Below, in pieces: positions 48,953-54,244 of a stretch of 64,000 nucleotides of DNA. A program made the translations under genes and the position numbers. Numbering within the stretch: the first letter of the stretch is position 1; every line of letters begins with the position of its first letter. The notes under the pieces are model-generated. The model saw only the letters and a program-made list of their open reading frames with translations. It made no database searches and was not told where the DNA came from. The DNA comes from Alphaproteobacteria bacterium SO-S41 (GTDB taxonomy: Bacteria; Pseudomonadota; Alphaproteobacteria; Micropepsales; Micropepsaceae): the NCBI GenBank assembly GCA_019670725.1, contig AP024629.1:3782001-3846000 (forward strand). Direction: 5' to 3'.

Positions 48953-49672
48953 ATGACCTATTGCCTCGGCATCATCCTGCCCGCCGGCCTCGTGCTCGCC
49001 TCGGACTCGCGGTCCAATGCGGGGGTGGACCAAATCACGGTGGTCGAGAAGCTGACCCTGTTCACCCAGCCCGGCGAGCGGCTGATCGCGATCCTGGGCG
49101 CCGGCAATCTCGCGACGACACAGGCGGTCATCACGACGCTGCGTCAGGGTCTGGATGCGCCGCCCGACCCGGATATCCGCACCCTCTTCAACGTGCGGAC
49201 CCTTTTCGACGCGGCCGAACTCGTCGGCGACACGCTGCGCGTCGCGACCTCGCGCAGCACGCCCTATGTCGAGGAGGCCAGCGCGTCCTTTCTGGTCTCG
49301 GGCCAGATCAAGGGTGAGGCGCACCGCCTCTTCCGCATCTTCCCCGAGGGCAATTTCGTCGAGGCCTCGGAACGCGCCCAGTTCTTCCAGCTGGGCGAGA
49401 CCAAATACGGCAAGCCCATTCTGGACCGCGCGCTCGCGCGCGCCACGACGCTGGACGAGACCGCCAAGCTTGCGCTGCTGTCCTTCGACGCGACGATGCG
49501 CAGCAATGTCGCAGTCGGGCCGCCGATCGATATGCTGCGCTATACGGCAGACAGCTTTGCGCCGGGGCAGCGCGACAAGTTCGACGAGGACAATTCCTAT
49601 TGGCGCGACCTGACCGGGCACTATAGCGAGGGTCTCGTCCGGCTGGTCGAGAGCCTGCCACCGCCGCCCTGA
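48953..49672 (+). CDS. Anbu proteasome-type peptidase
   Basis: A 239-residue Ntn hydrolase of the Anbu (ancestral beta subunit) family, related to HslV and proteasome beta subunits. It starts MTYCLGIILPAGLVLASDSRSN; removal of Met1 exposes the likely nucleophile Thr2, and ASDSRSNAGVDQ and the VEKLT lysine match the family active site. Members form large helical or ring assemblies with unknown substrates. In most genomes Anbu is encoded beside ATP-grasp, alpha-E and transglutaminase-like genes; none is visible here. Its function is unsettled in the literature as I know it. Confidence 0.88.
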   Translation: MTYCLGIILPAGLVLASDSRSNAGVDQITVVEKLTLFTQPGERLIAILGAGNLATTQAVITTLRQGLDAPPDPDIRTLFNVRTLFDAAELVGDTLRVATSRSTPYVEEASASFLVSGQIKGEAHRLFRIFPEGNFVEASERAQFFQLGETKYGKPILDRALARATTLDETAKLALLSFDATMRSNVAVGPPIDMLRYTADSFAPGQRDKFDEDNSYWRDLTGHYSEGLVRLVESLPPPP

Positions 49673-49745: not shown

Positions 49746-50900
<1,155 letters not shown>

Positions 50901-52037
50901 CTACATCCGGTACGCGCCCGTCACTGGGTCGGAGAAGGCGCGGCACCATAAAGCGGCGAGGTGTTGTTTGGAGGGGGCGTCGACTTCGATGACGCCGCCG
51001 CCGGGGGTGGCCGTGGCGAGGGTTTTCACGGCGGCCATGATCTCGGCCTGGACCAGTGAGAGTGCGGGGCCGCCGATGCCGCCGTCGAGGAAGTTCAGCG
51101 GCGCGCCGTTGCCGAGCAGATAGAGGGTCTGGTCGCCCTTGGTGTAGGCGTCGACATGCGGGGCGATGTTGGTCTTGGCGTAGTCGCGGTCGAGCGTGAC
51201 GACATCGAACTCGACGCGCTTGGAGCTGCAGGAGACGAGGATCGCGCCGGATTTGAGATGCGCCAGTTCCGCGGCGCCGACACTGGTCGTGCCGGTGCAA
51301 CCGAAGACGATGTCGGCATTGGCGAGGGCGTGCTCGCGTTCGGGAATGGGGAAGCCTTCGCTCATGGCGAGGGCGCGCTGCACGGGGTTGGTGTCGTAGA
51401 CGCTGGCGGGCGCGTCGCGGCCGTCGAGCGCGCGGGCAGCGCCGCGGCCGACCTTGCCGTAGCCGAGCACCAGGGCACGGCGGGCGTGAAGATAGAGCCC
51501 CTGCCCCTTCAGCAGACGCTCCGCCGAGAAGACGCAGGAGGGGCCGACCAGCGTGTCTTCCGCCTGTTTCAGCTTGCTGCGCGCCACGGAGACGCAGGGA
51601 TAGAGCAGCGGCGCGGCGGCGTCGTAGCGGCGATGGCCGGCTTCGGTGTCTTCGAGGCAGCCGAGGATGCGATCGCCATACTTCGCCTTCAGCAGCGGCA
51701 GCGCCGGGGCGAAATAGCCGCCGATCTCGATCAGCGCGGTGCGGCCTTTGCCGAGATAGGGTTCGATCAGGTCCGTCATCGCCTGGGGATCGAGCATGGT
51801 CTCCAGCGTGGGCTGCGCGACCGGATAGGATTTGCGGATCAGCTCCAGCGTTTCAGCGTGGACCGAATAGGGGATCGGGATGACGGCGGCGATCGGCGCC
51901 ACCTGGTTGAGGGCGTCCAGGAACTCGCCGCGCTGGGGTAGGAGATGGGTGATGACGATGGAGGCATCCGCCTGACGCCCCACCCATCCGGCGACATCGG
52001 CGAAGAAGGCGCGGCGGGCGGGCGAGATGAGGCTCAT
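50901..52037 (-). CDS. S-adenosylhomocysteine-hydrolase-like protein, copy 2
   Basis: A 378-residue protein, second of a tandem pair (the other at 52034-53173). The central Rossmann motif is VLGYGKVGRGAA, the pattern of the SAHH NAD+-binding domain, and VFGCTGTTSVGAAELAHLKSGAILVSCSSK resembles the SAHH strand-loop after it. LLGNGAPLNFLDGGIGGPALSL parallels the SAHH LxGRLVNLxxxxGHPS segment. N-terminal SAHH substrate residues (His/Asp of GxTxEE, catalytic Lys) are not clearly conserved, so a different reaction is likely. It is translated coupled to copy 1 by a 4-bp overlap. Function unknown. Confidence 0.75.
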   Translation of the reverse strand: MSLISPARRAFFADVAGWVGRQADASIVITHLLPQRGEFLDALNQVAPIAAVIPIPYSVHAETLELIRKSYPVAQPTLETMLDPQAMTDLIEPYLGKGRTALIEIGGYFAPALPLLKAKYGDRILGCLEDTEAGHRRYDAAAPLLYPCVSVARSKLKQAEDTLVGPSCVFSAERLLKGQGLYLHARRALVLGYGKVGRGAARALDGRDAPASVYDTNPVQRALAMSEGFPIPEREHALANADIVFGCTGTTSVGAAELAHLKSGAILVSCSSKRVEFDVVTLDRDYAKTNIAPHVDAYTKGDQTLYLLGNGAPLNFLDGGIGGPALSLVQAEIMAAVKTLATATPGGGVIEVDAPSKQHLAALWCRAFSDPVTGAYRM

Positions 52038-53173
52038 GCGCGATACGAGCCCGAACGCGGATCGCAGAACGTGTCGATCCAGATGTCCGCGAGGCGCTTG
52101 CGGCGCTCCTCGCCGATCTCGGCGATGGTCGTGCGGTCGCGCGGCGTGTTCAGGAGTTCCGCCGTTGCCATGAGGATCTCGGCTTGCACCAGCGGCAGCG
52201 CGGGGCCGCCGACGCCGCCGTCGAGGAAGTTCACGGGGGCGCCGCCGGCGAGGAGATAGAGCGTCTGGTCGCCGCGGTCGAAGCGGTCGATGTTGGGTGC
52301 GATTTCGGTGCGTGCGTAGTCGCGATTGAGGGCTGCAAGGTCAAACTCGTGCCGCTTGGAGCTGCACGAAACGAGGATGGCGCCGTGTTTCAGGAGCGGG
52401 AAATCGGCGGCGCCGAGGCTGGTTGCGCCGGTGCAGCCGAAGATGAGATCGGCCTGCGCCAACGCCTGCTCGCGTTCGGGGATGCGGAAGCCGTCGCCCA
52501 TCGCGACGGTGCGCTTGATCGGGTTGAGATCGTAGACCGTCACGGAATTGTGCCGGCCTGCCAGCGACTGCGCCGCGCCGCGGCCGACCTTGCCGTAGCC
52601 GATCACCAGGCAGCGGCGAGCATGCATGTACATGCCGCGCGACTTCAGCAGGCGCTCGGCCGAGAAGGTGCAGGCGGGACCGACGAGCGAATCCTCCTGC
52701 TGCTTCACCGGACTGCGCGCAACGGACAGCGTCGGATAGACCAGCGGCTCGGCGCGGACATAGCGGCGGTGGCCGGCTTCGGTGTCTTCCACGAAGCCGA
52801 GGATGCGTTCGCCGAATTCGGATTTGAGGCGCGGCATCGCCGGCGCGAAATAGCCGCCGACTTCGAGGATCGCGGTGCGGCCTTCCTGGAGGTAGGGCCG
52901 CACGACCGAGGCCAACGCCTCGTGATCGAGCAGTTCTTCCATCTTCGGCTTGGCGACGCGGAACTTCTGTTCGATGCGCGGCAGGACTTCGGCATTGATC
53001 GAATAGGGCACCGGGATGAAGAGCGAGATCGGCGCGATGGCGTTCGCGGCATCCAGCAGATCGGGCAGGTCAGGCAGGCTGTGATTGAGGACGATCAGCC
53101 GCATGTCGAGGCGCCCGACCTCCGCCGCGACGCGGGCGAAGAAAGCCTTGGGATGTTCGCTGCCGAGACTCAT
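52034..53173 (-). CDS. S-adenosylhomocysteine-hydrolase-like protein, copy 1
   Basis: A 379-residue protein closely parallel to copy 2: MSLxS start, EVGGYFAPAMPRLKSEFGERI, EDTEAGHRRY, VARSPVKQQEDSLVGPACTFSAERLLKSRG, CLVIGYGKVGRGAAQSL and NFLDGGVGGPALPLVQAEILMA. ATG at 53173 is preferred to 53230 because the N-termini of the two copies then match and AAGGAT lies before it. The GYGKVGRG motif indicates NAD(P) binding. Sharing length, start and order with the neighbour shows tandem duplication with later divergence, so both may form a hetero-oligomer. The substrate is unknown. Confidence 0.75.
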   Translation of the reverse strand: MSLGSEHPKAFFARVAAEVGRLDMRLIVLNHSLPDLPDLLDAANAIAPISLFIPVPYSINAEVLPRIEQKFRVAKPKMEELLDHEALASVVRPYLQEGRTAILEVGGYFAPAMPRLKSEFGERILGFVEDTEAGHRRYVRAEPLVYPTLSVARSPVKQQEDSLVGPACTFSAERLLKSRGMYMHARRCLVIGYGKVGRGAAQSLAGRHNSVTVYDLNPIKRTVAMGDGFRIPEREQALAQADLIFGCTGATSLGAADFPLLKHGAILVSCSSKRHEFDLAALNRDYARTEIAPNIDRFDRGDQTLYLLAGGAPVNFLDGGVGGPALPLVQAEILMATAELLNTPRDRTTIAEIGEERRKRLADIWIDTFCDPRSGSYRA

Positions 53174-53248: not shown

Positions 53249-54244
53249 TCAGGCCGCGGCATCGCGGCGGGCGCGCACGAACAGTCGGGCGAACCAGTCG
53301 TCCTTGGCGTTGAGCGCGAAGGTCAGCGGCTTGCCGGTGGCACGGCGCACTTCGACGCCGTCGTCGAAGATGTCGTAGTCGACGATCGTGTTGAGGCGGA
53401 TGGCGAAGTTCTTCACGCCGCCGTTGAAGATGAGGCGCTTGCTGGTCAGCACGATGTCGCCGGCGCCGTAGCTGTGCGTGAAGTGCTTGGAGCCGCGGCT
53501 GCGCGGTTCCTGCGCCTGGCCATAACCGGCGAAGAGGCAGGTTTCGGTCTTGGGCAGGTCGATCGGCGAGGCGACCGCCTCAAGCGGGCCGTCCTCGACC
53601 TGCCAGAGGCGGCGGGCGCGGATGAGGGCGTCCTGGGTGGGGGCGTCGATCTCGAGCCGGGCGCTGAGGGCGTGGCCGAGCTGTTCGATCTTGGCCTCCT
53701 CGTCGGCGGTCAGCTTGCCGTCGGCGAGGGAGGCGGCGATCTCGTCCTTCATACGCGCGGTGACGGCGTCGGCGAGAATGGCGGCGACGGCATCGGGCGC
53801 GACGCCGCAGGCTTCGGCTGCGGCGGTGAAGGCGGCACGGTCGGCGTCGGACAATTCGTCGTCGGCGATCAGGATCTGCGCGGCTTCGCCGAGGGCACGG
53901 CGGGCGCGGCCCTGGACGATGGTCTCGGTGTCGGCGGCGATGCCGAGCGCAGCGCCGAGGCTGCGCAGGCGGTCGGCGCCGCCTTCGACCATCTGTTGCG
54001 GGGTGAGGTTGTCGGCGGCGCGGCAGAACAGAAGAACCGCTTCATTGCGGGCGTCGCCGGCGAGCGTGCCGCCGTATTTGGCTTCGAGCGCGGCGACGGC
54101 ATCGCGCGGGACAGTCGCCCAGTCGTCCGCCTGGGCCAGCAGGGTCTCGACTTCGGCGATCAGGGCTTCGCTGTTGGCGCGCCCGAAAAGGCGGCCGAAG
54201 AAACCCTGTTCGGGCAGCGGGACGATCTGGAACGGAGATGCCAT
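53249..54244 (-). CDS. TerB-like / PH-like domain protein of unknown function
   Basis: A 331-residue cytoplasmic protein. Residues about 100-205 form a helical TerB-like region with acidic turns (DDELSDADRAAFTAAAEACGV, DGKLTADEEAKIEQLGHALSARLEID), as in tellurite-resistance-type metal-binding domains. The C-terminal part (about 225-320) has strands like DIVLTSKRLIFNGGVKNFAIRLNTIVDYDIFDDGVEV, which resemble bacterial PH/YokE-like domains. The association of the two suggests a membrane- or stress-related sensor. No partner gene is next to it. Start ATG at 54244; no signal peptide. Confidence 0.65.
   Translation of the reverse strand: MASPFQIVPLPEQGFFGRLFGRANSEALIAEVETLLAQADDWATVPRDAVAALEAKYGGTLAGDARNEAVLLFCRAADNLTPQQMVEGGADRLRSLGAALGIAADTETIVQGRARRALGEAAQILIADDELSDADRAAFTAAAEACGVAPDAVAAILADAVTARMKDEIAASLADGKLTADEEAKIEQLGHALSARLEIDAPTQDALIRARRLWQVEDGPLEAVASPIDLPKTETCLFAGYGQAQEPRSRGSKHFTHSYGAGDIVLTSKRLIFNGGVKNFAIRLNTIVDYDIFDDGVEVRRATGKPLTFALNAKDDWFARLFVRARRDAAA

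Follow-up and report, generated by a model that had tools for sequence, protein, structure and literature searches.

Two adjacent genes in the window, the stretch of 64,000 nucleotides analysed here, encode proteins that are a variant on the fold of S-adenosylhomocysteine hydrolase (SAHH) and have clearly diverged from SAHH itself. We put at roughly one in two the probability that the pair are NAD-dependent enzymes which oxidise the 3'-hydroxyl of a ribofuranosyl nucleotide or nucleoside and do not hydrolyse SAH. The chemistry is suggested by the pattern of active-site residues kept and lost, and the class of substrate also by the nucleotide-phosphate-cleaving enzymes that accompany relatives.

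The gene pair and its fold

The upstream member, copy 1 (P0002, 379 aa), lies at 52034..53173 (-), and the downstream member, copy 2 (P0001, 378 aa), at 50901..52037 (-), its start falling inside the final 4 bp of copy 1. These coordinates, with 4 bp shared, agree with the original prediction, which was also right that the two proteins parallel each other along their whole length (58% identity across 378 residues, with one gap) and that both carry the NAD-binding motif GYGKVGRG (in copy 1, residues 192-199, 52577..52600 (-)). An in-frame TTG further upstream would make copy 1 a protein of 398 aa, but the protein of a second species lines up with the start at the 53173 ATG (MSLGSEH). Both copies are found in that species, at 80% and 83% identity and with dN/dS of about 0.2, and hence both genes are taken to be real. 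Purifying selection acts on both copies, with dN/dS of 0.22 and 0.19 for the pair and 0.19 for the acyl-CoA dehydrogenase gene. Degeneration of one copy was ruled out, as both hold every invariant residue and their dN/dS values are alike.

Both proteins match the Pfam family AdoHcyase_NAD (PF00670) at 58.8 and 61.9 bits (cut-off, 27), and the closest PDB entries by sequence are SAHHs (E 1e-18), in line with the predicted SAHH homology and NAD-binding fold. Two features of the NAD site, the GxGxxG motif (G192/G194/G197) and an acidic residue, D215 (SAHH E243), are retained. An AlphaFold model of P0002, built with 40 family sequences, has a mean pLDDT of 93.5 and a pTM of 0.88, and Foldseek matched it to the SAHHs 7r39 and 3x2f with a TM of 0.82 (query-normalised) over ~380 columns. 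Structure prediction, proposed at the outset as a check, thus returned the SAHH fold and no other family. The layout of the SAHH C-terminal domain, claimed earlier, is present, and the claim understated the likeness: in the model the architecture of SAHH is complete, extending beyond the NAD domain to the N-terminal substrate domain, with only the C-terminal tail missing. P0001 presumably adopts the same fold, given its 58% identity to P0002.

Active-site residues kept and lost

Residues were mapped by aligning 18 SAHHs jointly with 25 family members (SAHH numbering is given first and P0002 numbering second). Kept are H55=H31, S83=S58, E155=E129, E156=D130 (conservative), T157=T131, S183=S154, K186=K157, D190=D161, N346=N315 and the glycine loop; H31, E129, D130, T131, K157, D161 and N315 show no variation across the 25 family members. 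The counterpart of the SAHH ribose-binding motif EETTTG is found at residues 121-138 of copy 1 (GERILGFVEDTEAGHRRY; 52760..52813 (-)), which include E129, D130 and T131. Residues 152-161 (ARSPVKQQED; 52691..52720 (-)) hold K157 and D161, with A152 at the place of N181.

Lost are T57 (Leu), D131 (Val/Ile; V105/I105), D134 (Tyr), T158 (Glu132, invariant in the family), N181 (Ala), N191 (variable), H301 (Ser; S272) and H353 (Pro or small residues), and the position of SAHH D130 is Asp/Glu104. The C-terminal K426/Y430 tail (DHYRY), which completes the NAD site, is absent from both proteins and from 24 of the 25 aligned members, the remaining row having unrelated residues. D131, H301, N181 and the tail are kept by all 18 SAHHs compared, and T57 by 17 of the 18, whereas their counterparts are lost in the family. 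The mapping from E155 to N346 is also given by a phmmer alignment. H55 and S83 are mapped with less certainty, from a single multiple alignment and predicted secondary structure, in which strand 25-32 ends at H31 and is followed by helix 36-46, and S58 lies near the end of strand 49-59; H31 and S58 are probably the true counterparts.

In mouse SAHH, the 2'-OH of the ribose is held by E156/D190, the 3'-OH by T157/K186 and the 5'-OH by H55/D131/H301; K186 is the acid for 3'-keto reduction, D131, the acid/base at C4', donates the C4' proton, and T57 contacts the adenine (PMC4647836). The set for 3'-oxidation (K186, D190, T157 and E156) is retained in the family as K157, D161, T131 and D130, and D131 and H301, which serve the 5'-chemistry, have given way to V105/I105 and S272. 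From this pattern we infer that the family has retained the 3'-oxidation half of SAHH and that most of the 5'-elimination half is gone. The original statement that SAHH substrate residues are not recognisable was half right: the ribose 2'/3'-OH set, N346 and probably H55 and S83 can be recognised, and D131, D134, N181, N191, H301, T57, H353 and the tail cannot. Its suggestion of a changed reaction is supported as probable by the loss of the 5'-chemistry residues; an intact SAHH active site was not seen, with D131, H301, N181, N191 and the tail missing.

Homology, and the annotation of relatives as adenosylhomocysteinase, might suggest a diverged but true hydrolase of SAH (or of S-inosylhomocysteine), kept as a backup for the housekeeping enzyme. 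This reading is hardly credible, given that a canonical SAHH with the DHYRY C-terminal tail is already encoded elsewhere in the genome (C1:4323193, 263 bits to PF00670), that the pair scores 76.6 and 79.8 bits against the NCBIfam ahcY model, whose cut-off is 497.6, and that the pair lacks D131, H301, N181, N191 and the tail. The canonical SAHH, the low ahcY scores and the lost residues likewise rule out a duplicate of the housekeeping SAHH.

A changed reaction in an SAHH homologue has a precedent in the angustmycin dehydratase AgmF, which uses NAD, alters a nucleoside sugar and is inactive on SAH; its essential residues are H56, D129, K184, D188 and H299 (PMC8599513). Like AgmF, the pair would be SAHH homologues recruited for a nucleoside sugar, and one could envisage an AgmF-like elimination or dehydration on another substrate, with the acid/base residues relocated, e.g. 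to E104/D104 or E132. Retention of H31 (the H55 counterpart), the change of T158 to the invariant Glu132 and the presence of Asp/Glu104 at D130 would fit such an arrangement. However, two of the five residues essential in AgmF, D129 and H299, correspond to Val/Ile and Ser in the family, and we regard relocated elimination as quite improbable.

Distribution, genomic slot and partner genes

Scanning a single genome from each species for the family yielded 79 loci, and searches of plasmids and viruses added more. A tree of 51 sequences sets the family apart from SAHH on a long branch with 100/100 support. The window proteins, the sister-species copies, two Legionellales sequences and one from Nevskia form one group (100/98 support); some branches in this tree are long, making other placements unsure. 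Each window copy pairs with its counterpart from the sister species, and the duplication therefore predates that species split. Tandem arrangement is not a trait of the family, as other members turned up only as single copies. The pair is present in 2 of 96 genomes of the bacterial family, namely the window genome and that of one sister species, and in 1 of 398 genomes in a sample of the phylum. Viral contigs contributed four family loci, mostly of actinobacterial appearance. A phage origin was considered and rejected; just two weak matches were obtained, on Acinetobacter phage-labelled contigs annotated ahcY.

Invariant columns of the family alignment define the motifs GGYF, EDTExGxxxY, VARSxxKxxEDxLVG, GxGKxG, NF and W, all of which occur in the window pair. 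Judged by its sequences, this unnamed family stands clearly apart from SAHH. Its members carry the database labels adenosylhomocysteinase or NAD(P)-dependent oxidoreductase, and the first of these is contradicted by the residue pattern. The papers found on SAHH-like proteins mostly concern animal AHCYL, and biochemistry of any member of the family was not found. Compared to the majority of members, which are linked to NUDIX genes, the window group has PYS for PKS (PKPKS), SCSSK for VTSSxDE and NFxD for NFxH. Because of these departures, the reaction of the window group may differ again.

The pair occupies a slot bordered by an upstream neighbour of 331 aa with no confident Pfam family (53249..54244 (-)) and a convergent acyl-CoA dehydrogenase gene (49746..50900 (+)), both outside the system. 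These two genes are neighbours across the genus. In G001, a further sister species, the slot between them is empty, in G002 a GNAT gene fills it, and in G000 and G003 (the window genome and the sister species with the pair) it contains the pair; in G004 the bordering genes are on separate contigs. None of the G001, G002 and G004 sites showed traces of the pair. Since the content of the slot varies, the window neighbours say little about function, and we rejected a function deduced from them. Anti-phage defence was likewise ruled out for the pair, neither protein matching PADLOC. Two further genes in the window may be mentioned in their own right. The 331-aa gene, conserved in the genus, scores weakly (E 8e-5) against PDC-S48, a candidate defence model, and the gene at 48953-49672, in this alphaproteobacterial genome, is weakly similar to proteasome beta-subunits (PF00227, E 5e-5).

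Of the 91 loci examined, 78 have a gene for a NUDIX or HD phosphohydrolase next to the SAHH-like gene or fused with it (NUDIX, 73; HD, 5; neither, 13), although the NUDIX-linked loci come mainly from Actinomycetota and are not mutually independent. Single-chain fusions of NUDIX and SAHH-like domains occur at three loci, in two phyla (Moranbacteria and a Bacteroidota genome). Within the window's own clade, a NUDIX gene overlaps the SAHH-like gene in Nevskia, and an HD partner occurs in one Legionellales genome; the other HD partners are on Bacillota plasmids. The search for genomic neighbours elsewhere, suggested originally, thus uncovered a recurrent association, but one with no such partner at the window pair. 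No NUDIX or HD gene, adjoining or fused, was seen at the window pair, at the sister-species locus (L036) or at L038, and neither an MFS gene beside the window pair nor a product-like gene cluster around it was found. A profile search of the window genome did not detect an HD protein of the partner type, and the NUDIX matches obtained were weak and partial. Both Legionellales loci have a conserved protein of 446-475 aa without a Pfam match, encoded directly upstream of the SAHH-like gene (L037, 2671-4011; L038, 4247-5674).

Several catalytic SAHH residues are lost and the window pair has no metabolic partner alongside, features that would also suit a non-enzymatic regulator which binds NAD and a nucleotide or nucleoside and acts through protein contacts, as in animal AHCYL1/IRBIT; a sensor pair is conceivable from tandem paralogues. 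Two considerations argue instead for catalysis, namely the invariance of K157, D161, T131, D130 and H31 across several phyla and the direct fusion to NUDIX. In AHCYL/IRBIT regulators, moreover, an N-terminal regulatory extension is attached to the SAHH-like domain. No such extension is seen here; the proteins have 378-379 aa and their structured SAHH domain starts near residue 6. We consider a purely regulatory role unlikely and favour an enzyme, because the ribose-handling residues are invariant while others are lost.

MFS exporter genes join the association in several places. On Lactobacillales plasmids the gene run is MFS-HD-SAHH-like. One such operon, at L033 (5931-9128), recurs on many plasmids of Lactiplantibacillus and other lactic acid bacteria, and some related plasmids match just short stretches of the SAHH-like gene. 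A Staphylococcus epidermidis plasmid has phosphoribosyltransferase, HD, SAHH-like and MFS genes in a single run with further enzymes. In full, this run (L183; NZ_CP121491.1, 1439-8568) comprises HpaB-like, NUDIX, peptidase-like, PLP enzyme, phosphoribosyltransferase, HD, SAHH-like and MFS genes and looks like an uncharacterised nucleoside pathway. SAHH-like, NUDIX and MFS genes occur together in one Streptomyces genome. At ~15 Streptomyces loci (L063, L076, L095 and similar), the SAHH-like gene lies among genes for a carbamoyltransferase, sugar epimerase, cytidylyltransferase, kinase-like protein, methyltransferase and phosphatase, possibly a product cluster. No HD protein of the partner type was found with an HD profile in 393 Streptomyces genomes, and in the Streptomyces neighbourhoods inspected no HD gene lies beside the SAHH-like gene.

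The solved relatives of the HD partners include 5dqv, which is YpgQ, an NTP pyrophosphohydrolase (PMC8177086). Nucleotide pyrophosphohydrolases include both YpgQ-type HD and Pur7-type NUDIX enzymes, which raises the prospect of a catabolic rather than biosynthetic role, in which the SAHH-like enzyme would work with NUDIX or HD to clear damaged or non-canonical nucleotides. The scattered, single-copy occurrence of the family is consistent with such house-cleaning or salvage, as is the setting of the Moranbacteria NUDIX fusion, which sits by ordinary, housekeeping-looking genes. Yet the patchy distribution (2 of 96, 1 of 398), the frequent plasmids and the MFS exporters fit an accessory product pathway better, and we view house-cleaning as unlikely.

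A proposed ribose 3'-oxidation and its parallels

In the reading we prefer, ribose 3'-oxidation, both paralogues would bind NAD and oxidise the C3'-OH of the substrate ribose, the retained Lys/Asp/Thr set making a 3'-keto intermediate. The usual deprotonation at C4' and 5' elimination should not follow, because D131 and H301 are missing. The enzyme might stop there as a 3'-dehydrogenase, or the acidified C2' might be used for ribo-to-arabino epimerisation, with the ketone then reduced back. The NUDIX or HD phosphohydrolase of relatives could take off phosphate before or after the ribose step, and in some of these relatives an MFS exporter could remove the product, the pathway serving to make or to clear a modified nucleoside. 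C2' epimerisation is the more specific and weaker idea, and amounts to a guess. Only tentatively do we extend the proposal to a widespread family that performs NAD-dependent 3'-oxidation, probably with C2' epimerisation to arabinosides, coupled to NUDIX/HD, of which the window pair would be a duplicated, two-subunit offshoot with a further changed pocket. A hetero-oligomer of the two copies, raised in the original prediction, is possible.

In summary of the comparison with SAHH, the pair shares the whole-chain fold, the GxGxxG site, the acidic residue after the NAD strand, the ribose 2'/3'-OH residues and N346, and differs in length (378-379 aa) and in lacking D131, D134, N181, N191, H301, T57, H353 and the K426/Y430 tail. 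A second parallel is the pentostatin/vidarabine cluster (KJ856912), in which penD and penG are annotated as SAH hydrolases, penE as MFS and penF as an HD nucleotidase preferring Ara-AMP; the published role of PenD/PenG, interconversion of SAH and adenosine, appears to be a proposal (PMC12648386, PMC11592144). Going by its gene letters, this cluster would have an MFS-HD-SAHH-like run, like the Lactobacillales plasmids, and the likeness serves as a lead.

In puromycin biosynthesis, the NAD-dependent ATP dehydrogenase Pur10, described as RifL-like, works with the NUDIX enzyme Pur7 (PMC11641026), and a Photorhabdus operon contains Pur10/Pur7-type homologues together with an MFS exporter (PMC9239236). 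The activities combined in our proposal are thus known to occur together, if with a dehydrogenase of another family. As is proposed for relatives of the window pair, a nucleotide dehydrogenase and a NUDIX enzyme here act in one pathway. Pur10 belongs to a different oxidoreductase family from the SAHH-like proteins.

The residue pattern suggests that the two halves of SAHH are separable, with oxidation retained and elimination lost in this family. If the family does oxidise or epimerise nucleotide ribose, it would be a candidate source of enzymes for arabinonucleosides such as vidarabine, and would provide a handle for nucleoside products encoded by plasmids of food and skin bacteria.
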